From an uncultured Chthonomonas sp. (GTDB lineage Bacteria > Armatimonadota > Chthonomonadetes > Chthonomonadales > CAJBBX01), in assembly GCA_903951425.1 (NCBI GenBank), contig CAJBBX010000071.1, forward strand, positions 1 through 64,000: a DNA stretch of 64,000 bases, in the 5' to 3' direction. Shown piece after piece: positions 11,639 through 60,223 of this stretch (its first letter is position 1; each line of letters opens with the position of its first letter). Below the pieces are notes generated by a model. That model made no database searches, was not told where the DNA came from, and was given only the letters and a program-made list of their open reading frames with translations. A program made the position numbers and the translations under genes.

Positions 11639-11660
11639 TGGGGAACTCCAGTACCTGTGC

Positions 11661-11688
11661 AAAAGGGGCGGGAGATGCTCCCGCCCCC
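11661..11688 (-). terminator. Rho-independent terminator or attenuator ahead of the LptD-like gene
   Basis: A 10-bp perfect stem (GGGGCGGGAG with CTCCCGCCCC; arms 11665-11674 and 11678-11687), a 3-nt loop, and TTTT on the minus strand (11661-11664). It lies between the small CsgG-like gene and the LptD-like gene. It ends about 22 bases before the TTG start, so it either ends the upstream transcript or attenuates the barrel gene. Confidence 0.75.
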
Positions 11689-12566: not shown

Positions 12567-15500
12567 CTAGCGGACCAGCACCACAGGCAGCACCGCAGTG
12601 GCGCTCCTGCCTCCATCGTCAGTGCCTGTCAGCTTCAGCAGGTAGCTACCCGCCGGGACCGCGATGCCGCGATTGTCGCGGGTATCCCACAGCAGGCTGT
12701 TCGCGCCCTGGGCTGCCGCCCGACCGCTGGACAAGGTCCGTACCACGGCACCTGTGGCGCTGACAATCTGCGCACGGACCGTAGCTTGGGCCGACATGCT
12801 GTAGGAGAAGGACATGCTTCCAGCCGCACGTCCCGTGTTGTGTACAGCCGAGATCAGCAGCGAGCTGTTCGCCGCCGCCTTCGACAGAACCAGGACGAAC
12901 TGCCTCGGAGCAGCCGTGGCCCCGGTGTTGTAGGTGTACGAGCCCGATTGAGCCAGCGACTTCCGGGCTCCGGTCGCCAGGTCTACCAGTGTAGCCTGAT
13001 ACCGGCGTCCGAGCGACGCCATACTCGGGAACTCAACCACCACATTGGCGTCGGCCACCGCTGTGGTCACGTCGAAGGCGTGGATCACGCCGGTTCCAGC
13101 CTGTAGGTCCGCAGGCATCTGGACGCTCTCGGTCGGAACGATGCTGACCACCGCATGCTCCGCCAAGTACGGCGGCTTCTCGACGTAGGCAGGCTTGGCG
13201 CCGGCGTCGAGCGGCAGGAAGTTGTCAGTGTCCATCGTCGCACCCAACCGAGCTATGACCTGAAGCGCATTGGCGGCTGCATTCACTACGGCCTGTGCAG
13301 ATGCTGCCTTCGTCGTCGGAGCCGGAAGCACCAGATCGCAGGACTTGACCGCCTTCACCCAGTAGCCGCGTCCCGACTTCAGCGCGCCGCCGGCCTGAAC
13401 CAGCACATAGCTTCCTGTCGCCGAGTTGAAGCCCCAAGCGTAGTTCCGAACGATCTCGCCCGCCTGGGCAATCGGCAGCGTCTGGCCTTGGTACTTGACC
13501 TGAACCGCCGACCATGCAATGTCCTGAAGGTAGACGGAGCCCACCATGTTCCAGCCAGCCGTCAGCGGAATGCTATACGCCTGCGACTGGCTCCAGAGCT
13601 TGCCGCGCGGGTTCAGCACAACGCCCTGGTTGGGCTTCGCCCAGTATGCCTGTCCGCCAGATGCGCGAACGTTGTCAGCGTACTGGTAGCCGCCAGTCGG
13701 CGCGATCACTGGGTTCCACACGGCCAAGTTCAGCGCCGTGATGGACAGCGGGGAGCCCGATGTGTCGGTTGCGCCGAACGTCAAGCTTGGATCCGGGGAG
13801 ACCGGAACCAGCGGCAGCGAGATGAGATCAAGCACATTGGCAGTCACGTTGACCGTCACGCCAATGACCTTGAACGGATACTCGGCTGTCGCCTTATCAT
13901 AGACGCCGGCCACGCCCGGCCACTCAACCTGGACCTTCCAGTCGCCTGTCTGGCCCAACGTTCCGGAAGTGTAGCTGAAGGCTCCGTCCGCCGCCGCAGT
14001 GGCGGACCCGGTGGTACCCGAACCATCAGACTCAACTAGCCGGACAGTCACCGGTGTCGGACCGACCACCGTGTTCGTGTCAAGCTTGGCAGTGAACGTG
14101 ACCGTACCACCCAGCGTAGCCGGAAGCGGTGCGAAGACCGGATTGACGTAGAACGCAGTGTTCAGCGTCGGGCCTCCAAGCGTGCTGTCCGCCGGCAGGG
14201 CGGACTCACCGGCGACGAGTGCATCCTGAGCCTTGAACTGGTAGGTATGGGACCGGGCGGTCTCATTGGCTGCGAACCGGTACTTGTACTGGTAGAGAAC
14301 ACCAGCCGAGTAGTCGGTTGCGGCGCCAACCCGCGTCATATCCTTCGCCACACCGTCAATCGCCACGCGAACGTACTGCGGGGCATTGCCGTCGGCATTG
14401 GCATACATAACCGAGAACGTAAAGTCGGTCGACGGAGGACCAGCAAGCGGAAGCAGCGTACCGGCTTCCGGAGACGATAGCCCCGCCTTTGCGTTGGCGA
14501 CCATGGGACCGCTATACGTGGTAGTAGCAGACGGTAGCGCTGTGGATGTGACACCGTCAGTGGTCTCGAAGCGATACGTATGGCCGCCGGCCTTGAGCGC
14601 AAAGGCAGCCGTCGTCACCGCGTACGTAATGCCTGCAGCGTAGTTGTACGGTGCAGAGCCAGCCGGCGCCAGCGCAAGCTTCTTCTCAGCGGCTGTACCG
14701 GGATCGATCAGCAACTGGATCGTCGACGGCGCAGTGTTGTCGAGATGCTTGTAGGCCACCGTGTATGTGTACCTGGTCGAGCGGGTGCCCTCAAGCGGGC
14801 TCAGCGTGCCGTTGTTATCGGCAGGATTGCCCGGCGTCGGCTCACTCAGGGTCGGGATGTTCGTGATCTTCAGCCCGCCGATAGTCCCCGACGTCGGGAT
14901 GCGGACCGTATCACCAGCTGTGGCATTTCCGTCATATGCCTCGAAGCTAAAGGTCAACTCGCCGGTCGGAGCGGGCTTGGCTATCACGTACTCATAGACC
15001 ACGCCAGATCCATAGTTCAGCGCGTCACCGGCCGTCGGCTGCATCGCAAGCGGTGCAGCCTGACCGGAAACCAACAACCGGACGTATCCATCTGCGGCAG
15101 GCGCCACAGCATCCTTGTCCCCGTACGTCACCCGGAAGGTGAAGTTGTGGTCCAGGTTCGCCACGATCGGAGGCGTCAGGAGACCGTTGGCGCCAACCGT
15201 ATGCGCGGTGGCGTCACCCTCTACGAACACCTGCACCGCTGCGAGGCTCGGAGCCCAGTTAACCTTCGGCCCTTGCAGAACCGTAGTCTCAGACGGCAGG
15301 TACGCGTCCGTCGTGGAGTCCGTGGTCTCGAAGCGGTAAGTGTGCTGGCCCTCGGGATTGTCCCCAGCAGCCGTCTTGTAGGAGTACAGGACACCCGCCA
15401 CATAGTCCACCGGACCTGCGGCCTCCGGTTGCATGGCGATGGTCCGCTCGGTAGCGGTACCAGGATCGATCTTGAGGCGCAGGTAGGTCGGCACAGCGCC

Positions 15501-18500
15501 GTCGGCATGCGCGTACTTCACCCGATAGGTGTACTGGGCGCTACGCACCGACCAGACCGGGCTAAGCGTACCGTCGTTGTCGCCAACACTGCCAGGCGTC
15601 GGGGCGGACAGGACCGGGATGTTCCTGATCTGCAGGCCGCCAATCTCACCGGCAACCGGGTACCTGGCGTAGTCACCGAAGCCCCCGTTGCCGTCGAACG
15701 CCTCGAAGTGAAGCGTCTTGACACCGGCAGGTGCCGGCTTCGGAAGGACGTACTCATAGACCACACCTGCAACGTAGTTGAGTGCATCACCAGGCGCAGG
15801 CGCCATGACCAGAGGAGTCGCCTCACCTGACATGTGCAGCCGCACGTATCCGTCCGCCGCCGGCGGCACGCCGTCGGTATCAGTGTACGTAACGCGGAAC
15901 CGGTACTCCTTCAGCACGTTCTGCACGATTGGAGGCTCAAAGCCGCCGCTCGCACCCACCGTATGAACCGTCGGGTCACCCTCGACCAGAACCTGAACGG
16001 TACTCAGCTTCGGAGCCCAGTTAACCTGCGGCCCAGTGCCATCCACCGTCACGGTCTGGAAGCGGTCGTCCGCTTCGAACTGGAAGGTGTGCGTGCCGGA
16101 TGCCACAACCACCGGGACCGTCTCATACACAACGCCTGAAACATAGTCCAGCGCGTCGCCGGCCTTCGGCGTCAGGGTATGCGACACAGGGTTAGCTGTG
16201 CCGGGGTCAACAGTGACCTTGATATTGTACGGCGCGATACCGTTGCCGTGCGAGTACTTGACGCTGTAGACGAACGTCGCCAGCGAGTTCCCTCGGGCAG
16301 GCGTCACGCTTGCCTCTGTGAGCGCCAAGACAGCCGGCGCCACTACCGTGAACGTACCAGCCGGATTCGGCTGGGCGTCGGCATTCTCTGTGTCATCGGC
16401 CGCCTGGAACTGGAAGTGGCGGGCCGTGGCACTGGCCGCAAAGACCTTGCCCGGAAGGACCCAGGTGTAGACCACTCCGGCCTTGTAGTCGCCGGTCACC
16501 GGTGATGCCGGCACCGTCGTCGGAGCCGGAATGCTGAGCGCGGGATCGTCGGCGAGGACTAGGTTCACGAACTTCGGAGTATCACCGAGGATGCTATCCG
16601 TGTACTTCACCGAGAAGATGACGTCTTGAGCCTGCGTGCCGGTGGTTGCATCCGGCGGCACGTTCTTGTCAAAGCGAACAAGCATGTCGCTAAGTACAGG
16701 TCGGTCGTTAACTGTCAGATCCTGGAACGGTACCCAGTTCTTGGCGTGGTCGGCCTGGAACCCGACACTGATTGCGTGGATGCCAGGGTTGAGCGGAGCA
16801 GCGGGCGCGGTCAACTGGAGCCGGAAGCGAACTCCCGTGCGGTAGCTGCCCGGGTTGATCGCGTCGATGGCGCTCATCTTCGAGTACGTGTAGGTATCGT
16901 CGGTTGACGACTTCACCCACAGCTCTACATCGCTTGCGGGCGCCTTATCGTCCGTATTCTGGTAGGTACAGGTGAACTCGTACAGCTGGTCGCTGCGCCC
17001 CTTCGGCAACGGCACAATTGTCAGGTTGGTCAGTGAACCGGTGCTCACTACGCTGACAGGCAACTCCGCCGGGATCGCATCACCATTGCCATCCACGTCT
17101 GCGGCGAGAAGGGGCCGGCGCGACGATCCAGCGCCGTCAGACGCCTCGAAGTGATAGGCATGGTTGCCAATCGGAAGCGTCGAGGAGCCGAAGTAGCGCA
17201 CCTTGGTCCTGTAGTCCACCGGCAACGGGGTGGACGGATCGCGGCTAAGCGCGATCTTCGTGGACTGATCAACAACCACATAGAGGCCTTCGGTAACGCC
17301 GTCATCCAACAGAGGCCGCTGGTTGTCGAGGTCGCTGTAATCGACGGTGAACTTGAAGGAGGTCGTAGGCGAGCCTACTGTCTGAGAGATCGTCAGGTAG
17401 TTGCTAGCCTTGTCCTTGTCATCGATCAGGCCAAGCACCGGCATGTTGTTCGCGCCTACGATGGGACCGACGGTCTCATCGTAGCGGTAGGATGCCCAGA
17501 CCGTACTGCCTGAAGCGAGCCCAGGAATGGTAATCTGGCCCTTCGCACTGTCTAGAGCGAAGCCCCCGGCGCCGAGCAGTGTAGTGGTCCCCGTCGAACC
17601 AACCACCCAGATGAACAGCGTGCTGTCACTGGCCCAAGCCCGCGTTCCTGACGGATCGTCGAAGACGTCGCCGCCTATTGAGCGCAGTTGACGCCACGAC
17701 TTGTAGGTCATGGAACTGGAACCGGTACCAACCGTTACCAAACCGTTGGGGTCGATGCCATCACTGGTCTCGAACCTGTAGCGGTACTCCTGCCCGGCCG
17801 GCGCTGAGGCCAGACGGATCATCGCCGGCAGGTGGTACTGGACCCCGCTGGCGTAGTTCGTGCCGCTCTCTGCCGGAACCAGCGACTTGCCTGGGTCGGT
17901 CGCGATCCGACCTCCCGTTGCCTGATCGTATAGTTCCACGAACAGCTTGAGGCTCGTCGGACCGTTGCTGTCGGCGTCACGGTAGCGAACGAAGAAGTCG
18001 TACTGGGTGGCCGTGTTGTAGGCCGTGTCGATCGCGCTGATACTGACTTCGCGAAGCTCCGGCGAGTTGTTCGTGGTGATCGTCGGACCATCGTTGACCG
18101 TCGTCGGGTTACCGTTGTCGTCGCCCTGCGGATAGGTGACCCACTCGCCGAACTCACGCCGAATGGGCCGGTTGGTGTAGGCCCAGTTGTCGCGGAACTG
18201 GAAGTAGAAGTTGTACTTTCCAAGAGCGGCGCCCGGCAACTGGTTAAGGATCAACCGGTAGCGGCGTCCCTCAGTGTACGACTTCGTCGCATCCTCCGGG
18301 GACTCGGTCATACGGTAGCGATGGTTAACAGGATCGTTATTGACGATGACCCAGGCGTCCATCGGGGGATCGTTGTCAGCGTCGCGGTACGTTACTTCAT
18401 AGGTATAGCTCTGGCCTACGACGCCCGACGACGGGGTAACCTTGCCATCCGTTAGGGTCGGACGGCTGTTCACCCACGGTTCCAGGACATAGTTGTCGCC

Positions 18501-20477: not shown

Positions 20478-20562
20478 ATGTAGCTCCCCCTCAACTCCTC
20501 GAGCTCAGTACCACGGCCCGCGCTGTGCGCCGCGCGTCCGGCGAGATGGCCTGCAACAGATA

Positions 20563-23238
20563 TCATCTCACCACCACGAACGGAACCAGGACACGGGCGG
20601 ACTGCCCGTCGGCCGAGGTCGCGCGGACCTCTGCGGCATACGAGCCAGCAGGAACCGCGATACCCTTCTGATCCCTGAGATCCCACGTAACGCGGGTCTC
20701 AGAGCCCGCCTCCGATGCGCGACCATGCAGCGTGCGCACCAGGGCTCCCGTAGCACCGAGCACGCGAACGGTGGTCGCTGCCGCCTGGGTAGACTGGTAC
20801 ACCACAGTCGCCGACCGGCTGGCGCGTCCTACCTGGACCGTGCCGCCGATGATCCGCAGGGCGCCCGCCGCAGTGCGCGGCGTCGCGACCAACTCAAGCC
20901 GGCGAACGCACGTCTGGCCGGTATTCATAGTGAACGCAGACTGCTGGCTGAGCAGCACCGACCGGCCAGACTCCAGGTCGCGCAACGTCAGGTCGAAGCC
21001 CCGAGGCAGCGCCGCTGCACCATCCCAACTCAGCGTAACATCAGTGCCCGGCGCAGTGGAAGCTACGCTGAGCGACCACACCTTGCGGCCAGCCTGCGAC
21101 CGGACATCCTGCGCGAATGGCGTTCCCTGGGCGTCCACGATCGAGAGGCTCACCCCATCACCAATGGCAGGTGGCTTCTCCACATCGTACCGATCATCGG
21201 CATCAGTGGCGCCGGCGAGCATACCCACGTAGTTGAAGAAGTCGCTGGACCCAGAGCCGGTTACACCCAGCCTGAGCCGCCATCCACCGCTCCACGACTG
21301 AGCAGTCGAAGCAAGGGCGCTAAGGGCTGCACGGCCGCCCGGCTTGGGCACGATCAGGGAGAGCCCTGTCTTGTAGGCCCTGACCCAGTAGCCGGCGAAG
21401 GGCACGATCTCCGTGCTGTAGTCCAGATCCCAAGCGTACGACTTCTGGGCGGTGTCGTACCTGAAGATCACAGGTGAGACCCAGCGCCGCTGGGGCGCGG
21501 CAGCCTGGTCAACCGTCAGTTGCCGAAGGTAGTCGGGATCGTTGACATCGGTGTTGATGACGCGTACATCGCTCCAGCGAAGGCGGAGCAGGTAGGGGCT
21601 CGCGATCTGGTTCCACCCGTTCCGAAGGGGGATCTCAAACTGCGTGGAGGCCCCGCCCACCGGCGCTGCATTAGCCAGCGTAACGCTTGCCTGGGCGCCG
21701 AGGCGCAACCAGTAGCCCTCGCCCGCGTTGAGGTACTGGACTGACTGGTACTGGCTCGTCTTCGCGTCCCAGCGGACGAGGTCAAACAGATACGGATCAA
21801 GCCCTAGCGCGACGGACGGCCTCGCATCAGCGAACGCATACGGGAATGAGACCATCTGGATGCCGGCGGGGAATGTCTGCGTCGGAAGGGCCGGGACCTC
21901 CACATCACGGGTCACTGAGGAACCCTGGGTGCCCGGACTGGCGCTGACGGACATGGTGTAGGTTAGCCGCCCGGATGCTGCAGCCGTGGGCACAACAGAC
22001 CAGGAGAACGCCGTCTCACCTCCAGCGGCTACGCTGGTGGCGCTCTTCTGTGCGGTCTCGCCCGCGGCCAGTTCCAGACCCACAGGCAAGGATAGAACTG
22101 CTCGCACGTCCGTAATGGCAGAGTCGTTGAGATTGTGTACGAAACCCTCAACCTTCATCGGGTTCGGGGTCAGCTGCTTGCCGGCCACCGCCGTCGGATC
22201 GTAGACCAGCGCCGCCGGGCCCGAGAGCCCTGCAACCAAGCGGCGTCCGAAGTCATAGGACCCACGCATGGCGCCGAAGAGCGCCGTGACAGTACCGGAC
22301 TGCCCGGGGCTGAACTCCGCCGGGCTGTAGTACAGGGCTGCAATACCATCAGTCGTCGCATCGGTGAAGGATGCTGTGGGGTCCGTTACCACATCCCAAA
22401 CGTTGACCCCAACGGTGCGGCTCTGCGCAAACATAACGGCGTTCGGCGCAGTTGGCGCTACCGCCGTACTCTCGGGGAGCAGTACGCCGCCAACGCTACC
22501 AGCCACGGCATCGGCCGTCGCCGGAGCGGGTCCTGCGGCTCGCCAGGCGCTTGGAACGCCTGTAGCATCCAGGATCGTTTCCAGCGTCAGTGTGCCGGCC
22601 TTCCCGGCCATTACGGGACCGTCCGGCCCTGCCGGCGGCACTGCAAAGTCCTGAAGGAACCGTAGCCCAACCGAGTGAGCCTGGCTGTCCTTGTTCGTGA
22701 TCTTGAACGAGTAGTAGACGAGGTCATGGACCAACGTCATCTCCAGGTCTACGGCGATGTCCGGCACAGCCTCGCTAGTATCCGTAGCGTCGGCAGGTAC
22801 CACATGCCACTTGGCAGTGATCTTGTTGCCGTAGGCGGCCGGCTCCTGGACCCACTCGCCGGTCGCATCCGTTCCATCCGTCTCCACATCGCCCCAGATG
22901 ATGTCCCATCCACGCAACTTGCCCGTTGCGTCACCTGTCACGACGGGAGTTCCGCCATCGATGCGCACGGTCACGTAGCTGCCCAGGAGCGTGGTGGTGT
23001 TGCGGGGTTGCTGCATCAGGACCGATGCGGTGGCGCCCGGCTCGGTGACGCCAAAGCGCCCTGCCAGGTTCACGCTGTTCAGCTGGCCGCTGTTCCCCAC
23101 CGTGGCTTCGAGATACTGGTTCGAGATGGTGGTCGATACCTGAGCCTGTGCACGCCGCACGCAGGCTGTCCCCGCAACGGCGACAGCCACGCACAGTGCA
23201 GTGCGGAGCATGGCTCTGCCGATCAGCCTAAACCCCAT
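20563..23238 (-). CDS. Exported protein with shared GWN/FlgD-like C-terminal module
   Basis: An 891-aa protein of unknown function. After a signal peptide (about 1-33, ending AQAQ) comes a beta-rich N-terminal half with no recognised catalytic motif. At about 430 a CARDB-like segment leads into the shared module: FPAGIQMVSFPYAF, GEGYWLRL, LRNGWNQIASPYLLRLRWSDV, FAGYWVRAYKT, YDVEKPP. It ends with a FlgD-like Ig domain (VRVLGATGALVRTL, WDLRDQKGIAVPAGSYAAEV, final VPFVVVR). ATG 23238 is chosen because GGAGG lies eight bases upstream; the ATG at 23256 has no site. Confidence 0.7.
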   Translation of the reverse strand: MGFRLIGRAMLRTALCVAVAVAGTACVRRAQAQVSTTISNQYLEATVGNSGQLNSVNLAGRFGVTEPGATASVLMQQPRNTTTLLGSYVTVRIDGGTPVVTGDATGKLRGWDIIWGDVETDGTDATGEWVQEPAAYGNKITAKWHVVPADATDTSEAVPDIAVDLEMTLVHDLVYYSFKITNKDSQAHSVGLRFLQDFAVPPAGPDGPVMAGKAGTLTLETILDATGVPSAWRAAGPAPATADAVAGSVGGVLLPESTAVAPTAPNAVMFAQSRTVGVNVWDVVTDPTASFTDATTDGIAALYYSPAEFSPGQSGTVTALFGAMRGSYDFGRRLVAGLSGPAALVYDPTAVAGKQLTPNPMKVEGFVHNLNDSAITDVRAVLSLPVGLELAAGETAQKSATSVAAGGETAFSWSVVPTAAASGRLTYTMSVSASPGTQGSSVTRDVEVPALPTQTFPAGIQMVSFPYAFADARPSVALGLDPYLFDLVRWDAKTSQYQSVQYLNAGEGYWLRLGAQASVTLANAAPVGGASTQFEIPLRNGWNQIASPYLLRLRWSDVRVINTDVNDPDYLRQLTVDQAAAPQRRWVSPVIFRYDTAQKSYAWDLDYSTEIVPFAGYWVRAYKTGLSLIVPKPGGRAALSALASTAQSWSGGWRLRLGVTGSGSSDFFNYVGMLAGATDADDRYDVEKPPAIGDGVSLSIVDAQGTPFAQDVRSQAGRKVWSLSVASTAPGTDVTLSWDGAAALPRGFDLTLRDLESGRSVLLSQQSAFTMNTGQTCVRRLELVATPRTAAGALRIIGGTVQVGRASRSATVVYQSTQAAATTVRVLGATGALVRTLHGRASEAGSETRVTWDLRDQKGIAVPAGSYAAEVRATSADGQSARVLVPFVVVR

Positions 23239-23261
23239 CAGATCGTCCTCCCTCAAGACCT

Positions 23262-23294
23262 GCGGCTCGGCCCAGATTGCCTAAACCGAGCCGC
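23262..23294 (-). repeat. Perfect inverted repeat in the leader of the 891-aa protein gene
   Basis: GCGGCTCGG (23262-23270) and CCGAGCCGC (23286-23294) form a 9-bp stem with a 15-nt loop, ending about ten bases before the ribosome-binding site. There is no T-run, so it is unlikely to be a simple terminator. It may stabilise the mRNA or modulate translation. Confidence 0.45.
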
Positions 23295-23388
23295 GGTCAC
23301 ACAGAACAGCCTCTTTGGACCTACCACCATCCCGGCCGACCTAGCAGACGTGGATCGCACCAATGGAGCGAGATCCCCGCCTGCGGAT

Positions 23389-26300
23389 CTACCGCACCAA
23401 CATGAACGGCTGCACCACGCGGACAGACCCGCCGTCGGCAGTGGCCGCCCGAACCTGAACCAAGTACGCGCCCGCAGGCACGCTACGACCTGCAGCGTCC
23501 TTGCCGGACCAGACCATGCGCTGGTCGCCGGCTGCGGCCGCCCGGGTTGCCACATTCGCCACCGGACGCCCGTCGGAACCCAGAATCTTGACCTCATACG
23601 TGGCGTCGCCCGCCATATTGAAGCCGATTGTGATAGCGCCGCTCGCTCGCCCTGCAGCCTGTCGAACCGTGAGGTTGGTTACCCGCGCCACGTTGGCGGT
23701 GGCAGGCGCCGCAGTAATGGTGTAGACACGCGGCGCACCGTCCGCCATGCTGCTGAACGAGAGGCTGGTGCGCGTTCGCATATCGGTCGTCGTCCCCGTC
23801 GCCTCGTCGCGAAGTGAGATGCGTCTGTTTCTCGGGAACGTGCCTTGCGGCGACCACGAGAGCGACACATTGCCGTCGCCCAGGTCCGACGCAATGGACA
23901 CCATCCAAGACTGCGTACCAGCAAGGCTGCGAATATCCCGAGCCAACGGCACCAACCCGTCAGCCCCGGAGACTGAGGCGGAGACGGTGCGGTCCGGCAT
24001 TGGCGGCTTGGGCGCATCGAGAGCATCGGCAGCGTCCCTCGCGACCGCCGACTGGCCGATGACGTTCGCTCCGTCTCTTGTGCCCTTTTGGCTCACAACC
24101 AGCTGCATCGCCCATCCGTCGCGGCCAAGTTGCATCGAGGCGGTCCTACCGGGCGCCAGAGCGTCAATGCGGACCGGCGGGACAACTAGAGCCACGTCCT
24201 GCTTGCTCCGGACACCAATCCAATGCCCCTGCCACGCCACGAGCGCACCGTCCGGAAGGGTCCGGAAGGAGTAGCCCTCAGTGCCGTCATACGTGTACAG
24301 GTTCGCCAGGATGTAGCCCTTCGTGACGGCGGAGCCTACCGGCATGCGGCCCTCAGGGGTATCCAAGAGCACGGCGTTCCACGGCACGCTGTAGGGGAAC
24401 GGGCAACCAACCATGTTCCAACTGATCGCCGAGGACGATGAACCAGTGCCCTTAAGCGGAATGACGAAGGACTTGCTCGTCAAGGCGACGCCATGGGTCA
24501 GCACGGGCTTGATCGATTCAACATCGGCCCAATACGCAAGGCCTACTGGGAACATGCCGACAGCAGAGCCATCCATATGCGGCACGGTGTCGGTCGGGTT
24601 GAATGAGGCGCCTGCCTCCTTCGTGCCATAGGCCGTGTAGACCGCATACTTCGACTCACCCGGCAACCAGCGCGCCAAGCGGAAGTCAGAGCCAAAGTAG
24701 GACTCCGGCGTGACTGCGTCCTGGTAGTAGGGGATCGAGATGAGGGTCCTGCCCTGGGTGATCTGATGCGGCCTGACCACAAAGTTGCGGAAGTCGGTGA
24801 CAACAAGGTCCGGCGGTCCGACCTTGGTGCCCTGGACATCCACGCGATTGTCACCGGGCGCCAGGTCCATGGTGGAGATCACCGCTTCGTAGCGGACTGG
24901 AACGGTGGCGCCGTTGGCATCCTTGACGCTATCCTGGATGTTCTCGACGGTCCAGTCGGTCACCGCCGTGCCGTTGATCTTAATGACCAGATTGGCCGGC
25001 CAAATCTGATTAACCGCCACACGAATGACGGGCCTCAGCGTCTCGATGGGATCAGGCTGCTGCCCAGTACTACCAGTAGCCGCCTTGCCCCCGGTGCCTT
25101 CGGGCTCGGTCACGGTAACGCCCACGCCGGCCTTAAGCAGGGCCGCATAGACGTCAATGATGCCATAGCCAACCTGTGGGCTCGGTACCGGATAGCCGGC
25201 TACGCGGGTGGCGGTGGACGTCAGGTACTCCTTGATCTCAGAGCCCTTAACACCCGGCAACGAAAGCAACAGCGCGACCGCACCGGTCACCTGCGGAGCA
25301 GCCATGGACGTTCCCTGCATCTCACCGTAGGTGCTGCCGGTAAGCGTGCTCAGGATCTCCTTGCCTGCGTGATCATCGCCGCCTGGAGCGGCTATCGTCG
25401 TGTACGGTCGGTACTCCGAGTAGTATGCCCATTTACCAAGATGGTTAGAGGCTCCGACACAGATGATGTTGGGGCTGAGTTGGGCGTTCACGGCAGGCCA
25501 CTTCGGCGGGTTGGCGCCGTCGCCGTCATTACCCGCCGAGACGCAGTAGACGGCGCCTGCCGCTGCATTCTTAAGCATAGTAAGTGTGAACGGTTCAGTG
25601 GCGTCCGGGGTGTCGCTCGGAGCATCCGAGCCCAAGCTCATGTTGATCACGTACTTCTTGTCTGGGTTCGCGGCCATGTGCTTGGCGACATACGCGCTAG
25701 ACTCAATGAGGGCGGCCGATGTCGAGCCCGCTGCGTCGCCCGCACAGATCGGCAGAAGCCAGACGTTATCCCACGCAATACCGCAGATGCCAACCGCGTT
25801 GTTGCCCTGAGCCGCAGCAATGCCGGCCACATGGGTTCCATGACTCGCAGCGGCGGCGACCGGGTTGCCATCGTCCACTAGCGTGGCGCTGTTGTATCCC
25901 TTGTACGTCCGCGAGGCAGGAAACTCGGGGTGGCTTGTCTGCACGCCTGAGTCCACGATGACGGCAACGACGCTCGCCTTGCCCTTCTCCATCGACCAGG
26001 CCTGCGGCATCTTAACTTGAACTTTGTCCCACTGCTCGCTATACCGGGGATCGTTGGGTGTTGCCGTACCGCCCGCTTGATCGTAGTAGACGATCCTGTT
26101 TGTGCCTGCGTACCGGACGATCGCTTTGGCCTTGAGGGCGTCGACCGCCGCCAGCGTCGCGGCGTCCGTTACGTTCTGGCCAGATATGCGCAGGTAGTGC
26201 GCGTCGATCGAACCTGCGATATCGATGGACGCCCAGCTGCGCACCACGGCAGCTCCAACGCCGTCGGCAAGCGCGGACACCTGGGCCTCAGACGTGCCGT

Positions 26301-26436
26301 GAGGAACGGTGATTAGCAACTCACCGCCCACGAACGCTCGGCCGCGGTCTACCGCACCGCTCGGCGCGGCGCCCGCTGCGACGAACACGGCGGCGATTGC
26401 CAGGCCGAGCCGCCAGCTAGTCAGTCGGATGCGCAT
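23389..26436 (-). CDS. Secreted subtilisin-like serine protease (S8) with shared C-terminal module
   Basis: A 1015-aa protein. Signal peptide about 1-28; a fervidolysin-like propeptide (about 35-110, GELLITVPHG); S8 catalytic domain about 130-430. The triad is visible: Asp162 (VIVDSGVQ), His199 (SHGTHVAG) and Ser377 (GTSMAAPQ), with oxyanion Asn303 (SAGND). After a TEPEG.GG linker come a beta-rich region and the shared C-terminal module (ISWNMVGCPF, GHWIGVRS, WDAPKPP-like DAPKPP). The final FlgD-like Ig domain has PAGAYLVQVRAATADGGSV and ends FMLVR. It probably cleaves exported proteins of this locus or environmental protein. A CAGGAG site precedes ATG 26436. Confidence 0.9.
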   Translation of the reverse strand: MRIRLTSWRLGLAIAAVFVAAGAAPSGAVDRGRAFVGGELLITVPHGTSEAQVSALADGVGAAVVRSWASIDIAGSIDAHYLRISGQNVTDAATLAAVDALKAKAIVRYAGTNRIVYYDQAGGTATPNDPRYSEQWDKVQVKMPQAWSMEKGKASVVAVIVDSGVQTSHPEFPASRTYKGYNSATLVDDGNPVAAAASHGTHVAGIAAAQGNNAVGICGIAWDNVWLLPICAGDAAGSTSAALIESSAYVAKHMAANPDKKYVINMSLGSDAPSDTPDATEPFTLTMLKNAAAGAVYCVSAGNDGDGANPPKWPAVNAQLSPNIICVGASNHLGKWAYYSEYRPYTTIAAPGGDDHAGKEILSTLTGSTYGEMQGTSMAAPQVTGAVALLLSLPGVKGSEIKEYLTSTATRVAGYPVPSPQVGYGIIDVYAALLKAGVGVTVTEPEGTGGKAATGSTGQQPDPIETLRPVIRVAVNQIWPANLVIKINGTAVTDWTVENIQDSVKDANGATVPVRYEAVISTMDLAPGDNRVDVQGTKVGPPDLVVTDFRNFVVRPHQITQGRTLISIPYYQDAVTPESYFGSDFRLARWLPGESKYAVYTAYGTKEAGASFNPTDTVPHMDGSAVGMFPVGLAYWADVESIKPVLTHGVALTSKSFVIPLKGTGSSSSAISWNMVGCPFPYSVPWNAVLLDTPEGRMPVGSAVTKGYILANLYTYDGTEGYSFRTLPDGALVAWQGHWIGVRSKQDVALVVPPVRIDALAPGRTASMQLGRDGWAMQLVVSQKGTRDGANVIGQSAVARDAADALDAPKPPMPDRTVSASVSGADGLVPLARDIRSLAGTQSWMVSIASDLGDGNVSLSWSPQGTFPRNRRISLRDEATGTTTDMRTRTSLSFSSMADGAPRVYTITAAPATANVARVTNLTVRQAAGRASGAITIGFNMAGDATYEVKILGSDGRPVANVATRAAAAGDQRMVWSGKDAAGRSVPAGAYLVQVRAATADGGSVRVVQPFMLVR

Positions 26437-26528
26437 ATGCTATGGCTCCTGTAACTCGTTGCACTATGAGGGCGTCCAGCGTGTCCACCGGCCGCCCTCC
26501 TAGACGTCACCCACGCGTCGCCGTTTGC

Positions 26529-28457
26529 CTACGGAGGCGGCGGCGGCATATCAGCAGGAGTGAAGCTCCTGATGCCAGTGTATACCCATCGGTAGGTCCG
26601 ATCGCCGTTTCCGGCACTGGAGGTGATCCAGTCCACGGGCCCTGGGCGATCGGCGTCATTGCGTGCGCCGATGCGCCAGTAGAGTGTCGGCTTGGCCGAT
26701 CCAGTCACACGGTTGACGTAGTTGGCAAACGTCGCATCCCTCTTGAGGGCATCGAGGGCTGTCAGGTCGACCGACGCCGGCAGGTTCTGTGTAACGCCTT
26801 GGGTCATCACAGCCGTGGAGTAGACTACCGGCAACTGAACGAGTACCGTCTTGTTCTTGAAGGACCTGTCGGTTGAGACCTCGACGACAAAGACATCCGC
26901 GCCACGAGTGCTGTTCCAGGCCGGGTTGAACTTCGCCAGGTCAACGTTCACAGCCATGTCCTGGGGCGAGCTTAGGATCGACGGGATGACCGGGGTCACC
27001 TGACCGCTGCGAACCGGTTCGGTGCTGACGTCCTCGGTCTCGGTGGTGCCGCCGGTCCCGTTGTTGTTATTGTTGTTAGATGTACTCGTGCTGACCGGGC
27101 GACGGATGATCGCGTTCACACCGTAGTTGTAGCTGTTGCCCGGCGTGAAGCCAGGGACCGCACCCGCATCCGGTGTCACTACCTCAGACTCACCGGCGCC
27201 GCCATTGTTGTTGGTGCCGCTGCCTCCGGTGGCAGCCTGACGGAACCCCTTCGTACCATCCCAGTATGACCAGGGGCTGGCGAGGTCCGTGTAGATGAAG
27301 CCGGTTAGAGCCGCAACCGGGGTGCCCTGGAAGTTGTAGCCATAGTCGGGCTCACGCCAAATCTGATGTTCAAGCGTTGTCGAACCCCACATGTTGTCGC
27401 GATAGGTAACCCTCACTGCCGCGGCGCCGTTGAGCGTGGTGGCCTCAGCGACGACTGCAGTGGTTGTAGAGTTCTTTCCGCCCGCTACCGCCGCAACCAC
27501 TACGCCACCAACCAGCAGCACAACCAAGAGCTTACCAAGAGCCGCGACCGACGAACCGCCATTGCTGGGGGTCTTGCGGGTGACAGCCTTGAAACCTGCG
27601 ACGTTGGGGAAGTCCGGCATCGGGAAGATGGCCCGCACCTTATCCTCGGGACGAATGCCGAGGGTGTTCTCCAGAACCTTCGCCTCAGAATCGGTCGCAT
27701 ACACGGCCGTGACGGCGATTTTGCCTACGCGCTGGCGGTCGCGGAGGACCAGCATCTGCATGCCCTCACCGACGCCGTCGCGGCTACCCTTGTTCACAAG
27801 GATGCCGAGATCGGTACCGACGCGACCATTGCCAACCGAGCTGATGATCGTCCCCTCGGGCAGGACGGTCTGGAGGATCTGCTTTACCGCCAGGTTCGCT
27901 GCGTTGTTTGCTGCTTCCTGTGCGAGTTCATCCGTGTCGGTGACGCCGGCCCTGGCATACGCTACGCCGATTTGGGCAGCGCCGCTTGTCAACTGGCCCG
28001 ACGACGCTTCAAGTATGCTGACCTTCAGCCAGACACTGACGCACTTCGGTCCGGTCTTCGGACCGGGCTTAACCGCTACAATCTCGCCGGTGACGATCCC
28101 GGTGGCGCTGAGCGCGCTCGCCAGCTTCGACATGGCCACCATGTCGTAGGGCTTCTTCAGGTTGAGGTCCCGAGCCTGGCGGTCGACCTCATCCCGTCGC
28201 AGGGGATCGAAGCGGGCGGAGTTGCCCAGCTCAACCGCAACGGCGTCGGTAGCGGTGCGGGCGAGTAGCTCACCGGGCACGCCCGACTTGTTGGCGAAGT
28301 CAACCACGACCACTGTCTGCATTCCGCCCGTAGCCGACGCGGACTGCGCGAACGCAGCCTGCGGGCGCAAGGACTGGCAGACAAGCGGCGTGATCATGGC
28401 GACCGTTAGCAGCCAGCCTATGATGCGGGCAGCCCTGCTCTTCCTGATCCGTTTCAC
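26529..28457 (-). CDS. Exported CsgG/FlgT-like protein with polyproline end
   Basis: A 642-aa protein. A signal peptide (about 1-38, AAFAQSAS) precedes a CsgG-like domain (VVVVDFANKSGVPGELLARTA, about 45-200). A FlgT-C-like beta domain follows (about 205-290: LGILVNKGSRDGVGEGMQM, GKIAVTAVYATDSEAKVL). A hydrophobic segment (LLVVLLVGGVVVAAVAGG, about 315-335) could span a membrane. The C-terminal part has fibronectin-like strands and an Asn/Gly-rich linker, and ends ADMPPPPP, echoing the tail of the 259-aa protein. The start is GTG 28457 behind GGGAGGA. The role may be an outer-membrane or periplasmic assembly factor; this is an inference. Confidence 0.6.
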   Translation of the reverse strand: MKRIRKSRAARIIGWLLTVAMITPLVCQSLRPQAAFAQSASATGGMQTVVVVDFANKSGVPGELLARTATDAVAVELGNSARFDPLRRDEVDRQARDLNLKKPYDMVAMSKLASALSATGIVTGEIVAVKPGPKTGPKCVSVWLKVSILEASSGQLTSGAAQIGVAYARAGVTDTDELAQEAANNAANLAVKQILQTVLPEGTIISSVGNGRVGTDLGILVNKGSRDGVGEGMQMLVLRDRQRVGKIAVTAVYATDSEAKVLENTLGIRPEDKVRAIFPMPDFPNVAGFKAVTRKTPSNGGSSVAALGKLLVVLLVGGVVVAAVAGGKNSTTTAVVAEATTLNGAAAVRVTYRDNMWGSTTLEHQIWREPDYGYNFQGTPVAALTGFIYTDLASPWSYWDGTKGFRQAATGGSGTNNNGGAGESEVVTPDAGAVPGFTPGNSYNYGVNAIIRRPVSTSTSNNNNNNGTGGTTETEDVSTEPVRSGQVTPVIPSILSSPQDMAVNVDLAKFNPAWNSTRGADVFVVEVSTDRSFKNKTVLVQLPVVYSTAVMTQGVTQNLPASVDLTALDALKRDATFANYVNRVTGSAKPTLYWRIGARNDADRPGPVDWITSSAGNGDRTYRWVYTGIRSFTPADMPPPPP

Positions 28458-28540
28458 TCTGAGAGTTCCTCCCTCGGTGGCGATGCGCGCCGCTCAGGCT
28501 GTCGGTCCGCCCAACGTCGGCGCCTGGCCTCCGCGCTACC

Positions 28541-28555
28541 CTGTCACTCTGACAG
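28541..28555. promoter_or_regulatory. Perfect short palindrome, possible operator
   Basis: CTGTCA-CTC-TGACAG is a 6-bp inverted repeat with a 3-base spacer in the 190-bp gap before the CsgG/FlgT-like gene. It could be a dimeric regulator site. A short palindrome can occur by chance. Confidence 0.25.
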
Positions 28556-28647
28556 CACCAACACCGCTGTACGCTGCGGTTGCGTCCTATTACCGGAAAC
28601 CCTGAAGGGGCCACGCTACGCTACGCATCGCGTAGCCCCTACCGGTT

Positions 28648-31600
28648 TTACCTTGTAACGACCAACGATGCGACACCTCGGACCGATTGGCCGTCCGACG
28701 ATTTTGCCCTAACCTCAATCAGGTAGGAGCCCGCAGGAGCGGCAATGCCCTTGGCATCCCGCAGATCCCACGTCGCCTGGTTCACGCCCGCAGCCCTGGT
28801 GGCGGCGCCACCGAGGTTCCGCAGCAATGCACCCGACGATGACAGCACGCGCACCTCGACAGCCGCAGTACCCGAGAGCGAGTACTGGATCGCGGCGGCG
28901 GTGCTTCGGCCGGCCTGCCGGGCCGCAAGACCCGTCAGCCTCAGTGTGGCGGCAGTGGCCGGGCTGACACGGACCTCGAACTGCCTAATGGCAGCCTCGT
29001 CAGCACCCGTCCAGGAGTAGCCACTGCTGCTGCGCATGTCGCGCACCGTACTCGTAGCGACGTCTACCAGGGTGAACTGGAGGTCCTTGCGGACCGATGC
29101 CAGACCTGGCCAAGCCAGGTTCACCTGACCTGCGCAACCTGCGGTCCGAACCGAGAACGCCCACGTCCGGGGGCCGCCGGAGGCGTTACGAACATCCACG
29201 CCGTAGGAGCCTGACTTGTCGCCCCAGTCCGAATGATCGAATGCTGCGTAGGCGTAGCTGGAACCGAAGACCGGCGGCTTCTCGACCTTGAAGGCGTCGT
29301 AGCCGGCCTTGGCGCTCGTGGCCTCGCCCAAGAAGTTATCCGTATCGTTAGCGCCCGTAGCGGTGACCGCCAGGTTCAGCACCCATCCGGCGCTACCGTT
29401 AAGGATCCTGCCGGCAGGAGCGGTACCGGCAGCCGGCTTGGCAGACACCGGCGGCGGAACGAGCAACGTGATGCTGCGGTAGGCCCGCACCCAGTAGCCC
29501 CGCCACGGAGACAGCCGGTACTCGAGGACATAGCTGCCGCTCATGTAGCCGTAGAGGGCAGCGCCCAGGGCTCCTGTGGCGATCGCCTCGGCGTAGGTCT
29601 TGGTGGCGCCGGCGTCGATGATCGACGTGCGGGTCCAGTCGACCTCAGCCGTGAACGGTGCGCCGACGAGGTTCCAGCCCGGGTTCAGGTTGATGCTGAA
29701 CGGGCGTGTGGTATCCGCCTTGGCGCCCTCAGTGGCAAGCGGGATGTTGGACTTGTAGCTCATGAAGTAACCGCGGCCCAGGGTGATGGATGCCGCATCC
29801 GCATTCGGATACAGGGCGTACTTCCCAAGCGACCAGGTGGCCAACAGGAACTGACCGTTCGTGCGATCGGACGCCGGGATACTCAGCAACTCGCCGGGAT
29901 CGACAGCCTGGTAGTTGTACGGCATCGACATCAGCGAGAGGGCCGCCGGGAATGTGTAGAGCGGCTGCATCGCGAAGTTGATGCTCTTCGTCTCGGTCTG
30001 CGTCGTCACTGCCGCGTTCCGGAACGCAGGCACGGTAGTGAAGCCGGTCAGGGTCGCAGTAACCTTGTAGGTCACCCCGGCCGGAACGTCCGTGATCCGG
30101 TAGTTGTACCGGTAGCCGGTTGCGTCCGTAGAGGTGGCACCGGTGACCGCAGTCGCGAGTTTGTTACCCGCGGTGTCCGTGAGATCGATCGTGACGCCGG
30201 CCAGCGGCGCCGCATCCGACGTGCGGGTGACAAGGCCGGAGACCATGCCAGGCGCTACCGTCTTGAGGAGGATGTCCTCGACGGTGGTCGCGGCGTTAGA
30301 TGAAACAGCGGCAGTCACGGCCGTATTGGCCTGGAAGCCGGGCGCCGTGGCGACGACCGACCATGAACCTGCGTCCAGACCGTTCGGCGTTGCATTAGCC
30401 TTGTCGAACGAGTAGGCGCCTTGCGCGTCGGTAACGGCCGTTACGGCCTGGGCGCCCAGGGTCGCCGTGACCGTCGCTCCGGCGATCGGCGTCTTATCCG
30501 AATCCTTGAGTACTCGGCCCGTCGCTGAGCCCTGTTCGGCCTTGAGCTTGAAGTCGAAGCCCGTGTACGTCTTCGCCGGCTGGACCGTGGTGTCGGCGTC
30601 ATCAGACTTCGGGACGCTGTAGCTCACTGGAACGCTGGCTCCGTAGCCGGTTGCAACGCAGGTCAGCGTGTACTTGGTCTGCGACGGTACATTGGTGATC
30701 GTGTAGGCGCCATTGACATCGGACGTCGCAGTGAGCGTTGCGCCGCCCGGCAGGACATCGACCGCAGTCACCACCGCGCCGACCACGGGCGTCGTGCCAT
30801 CCGTACGGAGCACCGTGCCGCTGATGACTGCCGGCTGGGCTGCCGTCATTCGGAAGCTCACCATGTTGCGTGTGCTGCCGTGGACCACCGTCGACGAGGG
30901 CTTCTGGATCGTGTAGCCCGCCTTCACCGCCGTGATGTCATACCCGCCGGTCTCCACACCGTTGAACTGGAAGCCACCGTCGGGCCCGGTAAGCGCCGTG
31001 TACTCGGTCACAGGCCTGCCGGCCGAGTTCGTGCGGCAGGTGAGGCGCACCAGAACGTTCTCGATGGGCCGACCAGCGCCCTCGAGGTCGAGTACGTTAC
31101 CGGTCACGATGCCTGTCCGGAACCAGCATAGAGTGTTGTGGAACAGCTCCGAGCGCCGGTTCTTGAGCAACACGACCGTCGGGTTCGTGTTCGGTACCGA
31201 GAAGTAGTCCGGGTAGAGGGCTTCAATGCCCATCGGGCAGTAGACCAGCCGAGAGCCCGTCGTCGTGTCCTTGTGGTAGAGCACGGCCGCGTTGCCATTG
31301 GCGTAGGTGAGTACGTTGATGGCTCCGCCGGCAGGGCGGACCTCGTCGGGATACAGGTTGCTCGGTGCGCCGAACAGCTTCGGGTTATTGGTGTCGTTGC
31401 CACCCGCGACGAGGTTTACGTCTCGGGAGATGTAGTCCGCGTTGCCGGGCGGGATCGGCGGTCCAGGATACTGGTGGCCACGAACCGACAGATAGGTCCC
31501 CGGCCGGTTCTCCCACGGGTCGTGGCTGATCGGGTTGTAGGTGCCTGCGCCGGTCAGGGCGTAGTTGCCGGAGATGCGGAACAGGCCGAAGACGAAGCCC

Positions 31601-34275
31601 AAGCGCAGACCGCCACCACTGGCAGCGCTGGGGAAGTCGCGGACGTAGGTGGCATGCAGTGTGTTGGTGAGGAAGTCGCTGCTGACAGCGCCGTCTAGCG
31701 TCATCGCCCAGCCCAGGTCCTGGCCATTGACCAGCATGCGGCCGCCGGCCTTCATGAAGGACGATATCTGGGTCTGCACCGACAAGTCAAGAATGGAGCC
31801 GGGGCCCACAAAAATGTTGCCGGTGAAGGGTGCGTGCCAGAAGACCGCGCGCTCGGCGACCGTCACCGTCCGGGGCGTCGTCTCGCCGGCGATCGTATCC
31901 GCCGGCTGCTGCTCGACGCGAGGCAGATACTGCTGCAGGACGCTGTCAGTCACTGCGCCACGGCAGAGGATGCGCCAGAGGTCGTACTGCTGGGTGACAG
32001 GCACATCGACGCCGTCGGCCATGGAGCCGTCCTGAACCGAGCCGTCCGAGTTCCACGCAGAGTAGTTGTCGGTGGGATCGTAGGCGCCGTAGGACTTAAC
32101 ACCCAGGGCATTGAGGATATTGCCCAGCGGGCCGGCACCGCTGTCGGTGGACCAGGTGGTGGGCCGGAGGAGCCGAACGTCAATGTCGGTCATCCAGCTC
32201 TCGGTGCCCCAGAAGGTGTGATAGACGTTGTCGAGCACCTGGGTCCCATAGCGCGAGCTGAAGAACTTCTGGCCGGCCGCATGGTCACTGACAAAGAGCA
32301 GGCCGTGCGACGGCTGGAATGCCGCTGTGGAGAAACCCCAGATGTTGTCGTAAATCTTCCAGTTGATCGCATCGTTGGTGAACGGGTCCACCGCGTTGTC
32401 GTACGCGACGACGTCGATCATGTAGTCCGACGGGTTCAAGGCGTCAGATGTCCATGTTGCGGAATAGGTGCAGACACCGGTGACGGCATCACGTGACTCA
32501 AGCTTCAGCGGCAACCAGCCCTCATCGGCCGGGCTCATCGCGCCACTGAAGGCGTAGAAGTCGTCAACGCTCGTCAGGTAGGTTGGGTTGGCGTAGGTGT
32601 TGACGCGGGCGTCTGCTGGATCGGATCCGACAAATACCCGCTGAGACTCATACTCATACGGTAGCCCGTTCCAGCGCGTCGTGCCATCCGAGGAGGGGTT
32701 CCCGCGATAGTAGACTTTGTGCTCCACGCCATCGGCGGACTGGTACTTGCTGTTCGGGTTCTTAATCTGGATGTAAGCATCGCGAATGCCGGTCTCAAGG
32801 TCGACCAGCTTCACGCTGAACTTCACGGTCGAGCCGGGGCCGGATAGCCGCGGGTTGATGTTCACGATCTCGCCGGAGGACTCGTCGAACCGCACCAGGG
32901 TAGGCGCGTTGAAGTCGAGAAGCGTCGATGAGAAGATGTCTGTGGGCGTCAACGCACTTGGCGCCGGCGGCTGTGACGTCTCAGATACGGAGTCGAAGCC
33001 GGTGCGGTTGGTCTGGTAGGCGACGCGATAGGTGGCGATGAACTGAGGCCAGGTCACATGGCGGTCGTCGTAGATATGGCCGGGATCGCCGGTCGGCAGC
33101 TTGTAGGCCGGGTTGAGCGTCGTCTCCGGCGTGAGGACCGTGTATGCAGGGCTGGTGGGGTCGGTGGGATCGATCCCCAGATCGACCTTAAGCCAGTAGA
33201 CGTCGCTCGTGCCGTTCCCTGATATGGCATCCGGAAGGCCGTCGTTCTTCGTGTCTACGCGATTGCTGGAAAATGCGAGGAGCTGCTGGCCACCCACGTA
33301 ACCGCCGTAGTTTGCGTCGGGCTTGTTGGTGCTCCAAGCCGGCTCAATGTTGCTCGAGGCAACAGAACCCGCAGAGAAGTTGGTAACCCGACGGGCGGCG
33401 ATGTTCGGAGTGGTCGGAATGACCCAGATATCCCGGTTGGACTTAACTGTGCCTCCATCCGCCGTGGCCCGATTCGAGTCGAAGGCGATGATGGAGTTGG
33501 CCTGAGTCGTCCCGGTAGAAGGGCTGAGGGACGGGTTGCGGTCGTCTGATATGCCCTGGGTGATCTGCGTCACAACGCCGGACTGGGTATCTACGACGTA
33601 GAGCTTGTACGGAGCAGTGGCGCTGGCCTTGCCGGCGAAGATCACAGCCGAGTTGAGGCCGGGCCACGCGCCGTATTCAGGTCCGTTCAGCGCGACAAAG
33701 CTGAAGCCGCTGGGGTTGTTGCTCAGGATAGCCTTGCTGGCCCGCGTCTCCAGGTTGAGTTCCACCAAGTCTTGCGTACCGGCGGCGGTGGTCTCAATGT
33801 ACATGACCGTGGAGGCGCCAAGGCTCACCGCGACCTCGGATTGCGAAGTCGTCAGACCTACCTTGACCGCAGACGTAGCGAGCGGGCCTGTGATGGCCGT
33901 GATGCCCGTGCCGTCCGGGTTCATTCGATAGATGTGCGAGAGCGTCCCAGCCGTATCGCCCGACAGGGTGGCCCGGTTGGAGTGGAAGAGGATGTACCTC
34001 TCATCTCGCGTCCAGTAGGGCGCCCCGTCAACGACGGTGGCTGTCTGGGGCGTCAGGTCCACGGTTCGGGGTGTTGCGCCAGAGGCGCGCGTCTTCCGCA
34101 GCGGCTTCCGCGCTACCGAGGCGGGCATCGGCGCCCTGGAATCCGTGAAGGGCGTGCCCTGACGCGCCACACTGGTTCCCGCGAGTTGCGCCCTAGCAGT
34201 GAGCGTGGAGGCGGATAGAAGCAGAGGAGACGCCAGTGCGACCAAGCATAGATGGGTCAGCCTCACTCGTTTCAA
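28648..34275 (-). CDS. Exported TolB-propeller / carboxypeptidase-regulatory multi-domain protein
   Basis: An 1875-aa protein. Signal peptide about 1-31 (LTARAQ). A TolB-like propeller (about 70-400) carries four SNR-type repeats: ILFHSNRATL, IAFDSNRATA, LAFSSNRVDT, AYQTNRTG. A long middle region includes FVSDHAAGQKFFSSRYG and MLVNGQDLGWAM, which resembles a glutamine-amidotransferase-like fold. Four carboxypeptidase regulatory-like domains (about 1055-1430) follow: VTGNVLDLEG, ISGTVLRTDG, ATGRVLKDSD, VSGLVTRTSD. The end is the shared module: NPGWNLVGAPF, WRGYWVRAYRS, DTDNFLGEA, VEKPP and a FlgD-like Ig domain ending SLVVTR. TTG 34275 follows AAGGAGGT by ten bases; the frame extends to 34560 but lacks a site there. 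Confidence 0.75.
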   Translation of the reverse strand: MKRVRLTHLCLVALASPLLLSASTLTARAQLAGTSVARQGTPFTDSRAPMPASVARKPLRKTRASGATPRTVDLTPQTATVVDGAPYWTRDERYILFHSNRATLSGDTAGTLSHIYRMNPDGTGITAITGPLATSAVKVGLTTSQSEVAVSLGASTVMYIETTAAGTQDLVELNLETRASKAILSNNPSGFSFVALNGPEYGAWPGLNSAVIFAGKASATAPYKLYVVDTQSGVVTQITQGISDDRNPSLSPSTGTTQANSIIAFDSNRATADGGTVKSNRDIWVIPTTPNIAARRVTNFSAGSVASSNIEPAWSTNKPDANYGGYVGGQQLLAFSSNRVDTKNDGLPDAISGNGTSDVYWLKVDLGIDPTDPTSPAYTVLTPETTLNPAYKLPTGDPGHIYDDRHVTWPQFIATYRVAYQTNRTGFDSVSETSQPPAPSALTPTDIFSSTLLDFNAPTLVRFDESSGEIVNINPRLSGPGSTVKFSVKLVDLETGIRDAYIQIKNPNSKYQSADGVEHKVYYRGNPSSDGTTRWNGLPYEYESQRVFVGSDPADARVNTYANPTYLTSVDDFYAFSGAMSPADEGWLPLKLESRDAVTGVCTYSATWTSDALNPSDYMIDVVAYDNAVDPFTNDAINWKIYDNIWGFSTAAFQPSHGLLFVSDHAAGQKFFSSRYGTQVLDNVYHTFWGTESWMTDIDVRLLRPTTWSTDSGAGPLGNILNALGVKSYGAYDPTDNYSAWNSDGSVQDGSMADGVDVPVTQQYDLWRILCRGAVTDSVLQQYLPRVEQQPADTIAGETTPRTVTVAERAVFWHAPFTGNIFVGPGSILDLSVQTQISSFMKAGGRMLVNGQDLGWAMTLDGAVSSDFLTNTLHATYVRDFPSAASGGGLRLGFVFGLFRISGNYALTGAGTYNPISHDPWENRPGTYLSVRGHQYPGPPIPPGNADYISRDVNLVAGGNDTNNPKLFGAPSNLYPDEVRPAGGAINVLTYANGNAAVLYHKDTTTGSRLVYCPMGIEALYPDYFSVPNTNPTVVLLKNRRSELFHNTLCWFRTGIVTGNVLDLEGAGRPIENVLVRLTCRTNSAGRPVTEYTALTGPDGGFQFNGVETGGYDITAVKAGYTIQKPSSTVVHGSTRNMVSFRMTAAQPAVISGTVLRTDGTTPVVGAVVTAVDVLPGGATLTATSDVNGAYTITNVPSQTKYTLTCVATGYGASVPVSYSVPKSDDADTTVQPAKTYTGFDFKLKAEQGSATGRVLKDSDKTPIAGATVTATLGAQAVTAVTDAQGAYSFDKANATPNGLDAGSWSVVATAPGFQANTAVTAAVSSNAATTVEDILLKTVAPGMVSGLVTRTSDAAPLAGVTIDLTDTAGNKLATAVTGATSTDATGYRYNYRITDVPAGVTYKVTATLTGFTTVPAFRNAAVTTQTETKSINFAMQPLYTFPAALSLMSMPYNYQAVDPGELLSIPASDRTNGQFLLATWSLGKYALYPNADAASITLGRGYFMSYKSNIPLATEGAKADTTRPFSINLNPGWNLVGAPFTAEVDWTRTSIIDAGATKTYAEAIATGALGAALYGYMSGSYVLEYRLSPWRGYWVRAYRSITLLVPPPVSAKPAAGTAPAGRILNGSAGWVLNLAVTATGANDTDNFLGEATSAKAGYDAFKVEKPPVFGSSYAYAAFDHSDWGDKSGSYGVDVRNASGGPRTWAFSVRTAGCAGQVNLAWPGLASVRKDLQFTLVDVATSTVRDMRSSSGYSWTGADEAAIRQFEVRVSPATAATLRLTGLAARQAGRSTAAAIQYSLSGTAAVEVRVLSSSGALLRNLGGAATRAAGVNQATWDLRDAKGIAAPAGSYLIEVRAKSSDGQSVRGVASLVVTR

Positions 34276-60060: not shown

Positions 60061-60223
60061 GGTTACTCCTTGATGCCTGGGAGCGGGCGCCGCCAAACCA
60101 CGAGAGCCCAACTCAGGCTTTCGGTAGCCCGTTGCGGAAGTCCTGCATGCGGACCATCGATCGCCCCTAGAAACATCAGCCGGCACGGGCTGAGCCTGGG
60201 AAACTAGTGCGATGGGTCCCGGG

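Follow-up and report, generated by a model that had tools for sequence, protein, structure and literature searches.

Four neighbouring genes of an Armatimonadota genome (Chthonomonadales, a placement given by related loci), on the minus strand at 12567–34275 of the window (the whole stretch of DNA analysed, 64,000 nucleotides), code for exported proteins that share one C-terminal module; the last ~100 residues of this module, a FlgD-type Ig domain closed by an arginine (CTD), are on balance taken to be a sorting and/or surface-retention domain of Sec-exported Armatimonadota proteins, a role suggested by the sequences. The four proteins are:

P0001, 12567–20477 (minus strand): exported protein, 2636 aa; module 12570–13841; CTD 12570–12875 (minus strand), end VVLVR; basis: translation, Pfam, start.

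P0002, 20563–23238 (minus strand): exported protein, 891 aa; module 20566–21867; CTD 20566–20871 (minus strand), end FVVVR; basis: translation, Pfam, start.

P0003, 23389–26436 (minus strand): subtilase (Peptidase_S8), 1015 aa; module 23392–24759; CTD 23392–23697 (minus strand), end FMLVR; basis: translation, Pfam, start.

P0004, 28648–34275 (minus strand): exported protein with four CarboxypepD_reg repeats, 1875 aa; module ~28651–29958; CTD 28651–28956 (minus strand), end LVVTR; basis: translation, Pfam, start with ribosome-binding site AAGGAGG.

A signal-peptide-like start and a convincing ribosome-binding site were found for each of P0001–P0004; once the starts had been set, the lengths and terminal pentapeptides agreed with those given in a sequence-only reading of the same DNA, as did DAPKPP in place of EKPP in the protease. 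The C-termini were aligned in all six pairs (BLAST) over the last 394–558 residues with 25–31% identity (E 1e-20 to 4e-53), and the common module measures ~420–460 aa. The same reading had called the proteins otherwise unrelated; this holds for the N-terminal parts, between which BLAST found nothing at E 0.01; only P0002 and P0004 differ, their alignment reaching ~100 aa further upstream than the module.

The module is tripartite, with a duplicated SxPY/GWN...GYW unit, a beta domain with DNFxG...EKPP, and the FlgD-type Ig domain (PF13860). In the predicted structure (pLDDT 90) two similar units (SxPY...GYW and GWN...GYW) make up an alpha/beta part, after which come the beta domain holding DNFxG and EKPP and the terminal Ig-type domain. 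PF13860 (FlgD_ig) was matched in P0001–P0004 at 30.4–41.9 bits (gathering score 27 bits); the GWN/GYW and EKPP parts gave no Pfam family above cut-off in a scan of the four proteins. A fold search with the whole module returned multi-Ig proteins as best matches (TM ≤0.2 by query length) and left the GWN/GYW and EKPP parts without identity; PorU and PorZ were among the matches at this same level and carry no weight in the conclusions. The sorting portion is likely the last ~100 aa rather than the whole 450–500 aa module, because that portion occurs alone in the related genome G243; the upstream GWN/GYW and EKPP domains would be structural parts common to a paralogous family.

The whole genome was searched with the module profile; six full modules were found, all at the extreme C-terminus, two of them outside the window (contig C97, 1909 aa, end VMTR; contig C163, 1105 aa, end VVVR). 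PF13860, proposed earlier for comparison, was over cut-off in all six proteins. A sorting signal had been expected to stand at the C-terminus of many exported proteins: the position was as expected in six of six, but the number is only six. Other large exported proteins of the window have different ends and lack the module. Since there are six carriers only, and neighbouring exported proteins do without the module, it does not mark exported proteins at large in this genome; the interpretation as a general tag was dropped, the weaker PF13860 matches being internal or in unrelated proteins. At 47270–50233, 51435–54554 and 57124–60186 (minus strand) neighbouring paralogous exported proteins are coded (DUF7948, SBBP beta-propeller, Big_3_5); the CTD is absent from all three.

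From all fetched loci 195 distinct closed ORFs with a CTD were collected. The loci were chosen by profile match in a six-frame search, which would have returned internal copies; in 195 of 195 the CTD lies ≤16 aa from the stop codon, and frequent internal occurrence, named in the sequence-only reading as the observation that would speak against a sorting signal, was thus not seen. The terminal residue is Arg in 175 and Lys in 6 ORFs; after clustering, terminal Arg was retained in 74/85 representatives at 50% identity and in 26/33 at 40% identity (background: 20% of other long ORFs in CTD loci). Conservation of the final Arg equals that of the core W, G and Y of the CTD. An end of the form VxR or VTR, as first described, is correct for the four proteins; across the phylum, however, it is the final basic residue that is kept. 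A signal-peptide-like N-terminus was scored in 92/107 carriers vs 5/107 for a mid-protein control (simple, crude score).

When the CTD was compared by hhalign with the C-terminal sequences (PNPF...KMLLLK type) of proteins from the FCB group and similar ones, the probability was 99.4% (E 1.4e-21); against solved structures the CTD profile matched FlgD (E 2e-13) and the CTD of PorU (E 1.3e-5), the similarity to PorU being confined to its CTD. The comparison with TIGR04183 that had been suggested turned out negative for the genome under study: none of its modules exceeded the 23-bit cut-off, and the five weak matches fell in proteins other than the module carriers; in relatives the matches were weak, with one protein over cut-off (24.0 vs 23 bits). 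On the hhalign, FlgD/PorU and TIGR04183 matches, the Armatimonadota CTD is, as judged by profile homology, a branch of the FlgD-Ig/type-9-CTD superfamily. The end of the type 9 CTD is a functionally important motif (PMC11285876), and a near-invariant Lys close to its C-terminus contacts PorV (PMC10994853).

Module profile matches were obtained in 242/255 Armatimonadota genomes (only about six candidates per genome scored). When all candidates were scored in nine genomes, the matches numbered 1, 2, 9, 14, 19, 19, 30, 46 and 60; throughout, match counts are not protein counts, a few proteins giving two partial matches. The CTD-rich relatives are G215 (60 matches), G243 (46) and G006 (30); many genomes of family f15 have 1–2 carriers, and the module is absent from family f22. 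Most matches in G243 cover the last ~100 residues only; in 20/20 proteins read (at least 20 varied exported proteins) the CTD stands at the end, 0–2 aa from the stop, and N-terminal types among ten proteins scanned include subtilase, sulfatase, M23 peptidase, beta-helix, NHL, PD40 and HYR. In G215 the full module occurs on subtilases, NHL, beta-helix and other proteins. Among the papers searched, none links Armatimonadota with such domains.

It is rather unlikely, if the most serious alternative to sorting, that the module is an ordinary structural end of one paralogous surface-protein family, spread by duplication and shuffling, with an Ig domain free of any sorting role and a terminal Arg that completes the last strand. 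Six copies in the genome, four of them in tandem, would suit this; so would the possession of all three domains in common, whereby the similarity is explained by descent, and FlgD, of the same fold, has no such role. Yet in G243 many enzymes with no relation to one another are capped by the ~100 aa domain on its own; among the 195 ORFs none has it internally, and the terminal residue is conserved to the same degree as the fold core. FlgD-type Ig domains need no terminal basic residue in order to fold, that of FlgD itself being internal.

The module genes belong to a larger gene set, to which the following are added:

P0005, 26529–28457 (minus strand): 642 aa, CsgG/LpoB-like N-terminal domain (weak profile match), end PPPPP, no CTD; conserved cluster member.

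11715–12494 (minus strand): 259 aa exported protein, LpoB/CsgG-like by inspection, no Pfam match; Gly-rich tail, end PPPPP; conserved in the cluster.

9662–11668 (minus strand): LptD-like outer-membrane barrel with N-terminal Big_1 (invasin-type Ig; E 2.6e-12); adjoins module genes phylum-wide.

The genes of P0001–P0004, P0005, the 259 aa protein and the barrel are co-directional with gaps of 46–190 bases, and the same set recurs in varying completeness across Armatimonadota, including bins labelled Zipacnadia; module and barrel genes are ≤12 kb apart in 66 of the 78 genomes where both are listed and on different contigs in the other 12. In P0005 and the 259 aa protein, which differ from each other, a hydrophobic or Gly-rich stretch precedes a terminal PPPPP; the Pro-rich end of the latter is conserved among most of its homologues of Chthonomonadales type (SPPPPPR, TPPPPPQ). 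At loci L064 and L074, where long ORFs precede the 259-aa-like and LptD-like genes, these ORFs stop soon after GWN/GYW and the FlgD-type CTD was not recovered; natural loss of the CTD is possible there. At 8091–9668 (plus strand) N- and C-terminal zinc-ribbon-like CxxC pairs surround a putative beta-type carbonic anhydrase, as read from the sequence.

A fold search with the predicted barrel (pLDDT 76) gave LptD for all top 13 PDB matches (E 8.6e-15 to 2e-11; TM ~0.3), and PF04453 (LptD) had no match anywhere in the genome, barrel 9662–11668 included. Most homologues end in an aromatic residue. The LptD-like barrel was found in 250/255 genomes, the module-free family f22 included, and because of this distribution it is most likely the LptD of the phylum and not a CTD translocon. 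A dedicated CTD translocon had been considered for it and was dropped on the LptD-matching fold and the occurrence in f22. The form with N-terminal Big_1, invisible to PF04453, is apparently standard phylum-wide. Judging by the constant neighbourhood, CTD proteins and surface glycolipid may come together at one site.

Synteny with the LptD-like and LpoB/CsgG-like genes throughout the phylum would also suit a docking domain, by which the CTD joins the cluster proteins to the LptD-like barrel or to the LpoB/CsgG-like proteins in a surface complex and is not an export signal; this is improbable, as it would leave unexplained the dozens of carriers that G215, G243 and G006 have outside the cluster.

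According to PMC11285876, type 9 secretion does not occur beyond the FCB phyla. SprA (TIGR04189) was over cut-off in 0/255 Armatimonadota genomes, with a short weak match at most in the CTD-rich G215, G243 and G006; four FCB-type genomes scored 494–1600 bits with the same model. The SprA-like matches of the phylum were rejected as SprA, covering only positions ~590–690 in barrels of ~900 aa (66 genomes). This ~95 aa stretch is also present in separate genes (~1100 aa) beside real SprA in FCB-type genomes and is assigned to another family because separate proteins of SprA-bearing control genomes contain it. Barrels of ~900–1000 aa (loci L098/L229, on the genome's own contig C127 at ~33047–33304; L203–L208) have only these ~95 aa in common with SprA 590–690; the pattern, GPYYL...GSERV.VDG...RG.DY.IDY, is widespread in Armatimonadota. 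GldM was matched in 0/255 genomes by a model that gave no match in any control genome either. No PorV/PorQ-like gene was found in the genome at E 1e-3; matches to the PorV/PorQ family (NF033709) in Armatimonadota were mostly below cut-off, with 1/255 genomes over. In relatives a PorV/PorQ-like barrel is coded directly downstream of the LptD-like gene (G175–G179, five genomes; G185; G187), and in G215 one (below cut-off) adjoins the module cluster; for seven of these barrels the best NCBIfam match is PorV_fam, 34–69 bits vs a cut-off of 90.

That the carriers are substrates of a true type 9 system with components too divergent for the models used is very improbable: profile homology to type-9-type CTDs, the below-cut-off PorV/PorQ-like barrels near the cluster in relatives and the SprA-like stretch that 66 genomes have in their ~900 aa barrels could be cited for it, but SprA is found in 0/255 genomes by a model with strong FCB-type controls (494–1600 bits), the ~95 aa stretch belongs to another family that also occurs in separate ~1100 aa control-genome proteins, and GldM, for which there was no positive control, is likewise at 0/255.

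The reading as a sorting and/or surface-retention domain is favoured by C-terminal exclusivity (195 ORFs), the terminal Arg, signal peptides (92/107), unrelated carriers in relatives and homology to type 9 CTDs, together with a conserved cluster that includes an LptD-like gene and PorV/PorQ-like barrels in eight relatives; in type 9, moreover, the CTD end is functional and the near-terminal Lys contacts PorV (PMC11285876, PMC10994853). Against it stand the low numbers of carriers (six in the genome, 1–2 in many f15 genomes), the commonness of FlgD-type Ig domains, of which FlgD's own has no sorting role, and the ending of the cluster protein at L064 and L074 after GWN/GYW with no FlgD domain recovered. 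On the same side are the lack of TIGR04183 matches over cut-off in the genome, of SprA in the phylum and of a PorV-like gene in the genome at E 1e-3; no translocon was found, and the LptD-like barrel, occurring also in module-free f22, is hence not dedicated. The sorting signal first suspected from the four ends is accordingly upheld in its position, carriers and homology and weakened in its numbers and machinery.

The best reading is probably that of a T9SS-CTD-like domain using a non-SprA outer-membrane route that is undescribed; because SprA is absent, the route would be different or much reduced. Carriers would be exported by Sec through their signal peptides, and the CTD would fold in the periplasm; an outer-membrane partner would then recognise its end with the terminal Arg, and the carrier would pass to, or be retained at, the cell surface. 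The best candidate partner in several relatives is the PorV/PorQ-like barrel coded after the LptD-like gene, none having been found in the genome under study, where the CTD would serve six proteins, four of them in the phylum-wide co-directional cluster. More tentatively, Armatimonadota could possess an undescribed, SprA-free sorting system with a T9SS-CTD-related signal ending in Arg, in which the core locus couples CTD proteins to the LptD-like barrel and, in some lineages, to a PorV-like shuttle.

If this is true, CTD recognition of such a kind predates, or stands outside, the FCB type 9 system. Since dozens of exported proteins bear a homologous tail in a phylum that lies outside the FCB group and lacks SprA, CTD sorting would seem to be more ancient or more modular than has been assumed, and a new route of outer-membrane export or anchoring is indicated. 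For a phylum known largely from metagenomes, the FlgD-type CTD with terminal Arg offers a simple tag by which the surface proteome may be listed.

Among known systems, the type 9 type-A CTD (TIGR04183/Por_Secre_tail) is similar in being a C-terminal Ig-like beta-sandwich of ~70–100 aa on diverse Sec-exported proteins, with a basic residue conserved at the end or close to it and with profile homology. It differs in that a terminal Arg is found here and not the near-terminal Lys or KxxxxK form; the PNPF motif is missing at the domain start, the scores in the genome are below the TIGR04183 cut-off, and the phylum is without SprA. Because SprA was searched for and not found, the domain is not filed as a type 9 member, though it would work like a type 9 CTD. 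PorV/PorQ (NF033709) is the best NCBIfam match of seven barrels coded just after the LptD-like gene in relatives, but at 34–69 bits vs a cut-off of 90, and the genome has none at E 1e-3. The barrel resembles LptD in its fold-search matches (top 13, E down to 8.6e-15; predicted model) and differs from it in being missed by PF04453 and in bearing an N-terminal Big_1, the model being moderate (pLDDT 76, TM ~0.3). With FlgD_ig (PF13860) the domain is the same by sequence, above the gathering score in all four proteins; in FlgD, however, the Ig domain is internal and belongs to the flagellar hook cap, whereas in the carriers described here, large Sec-exported proteins, it always forms the end.
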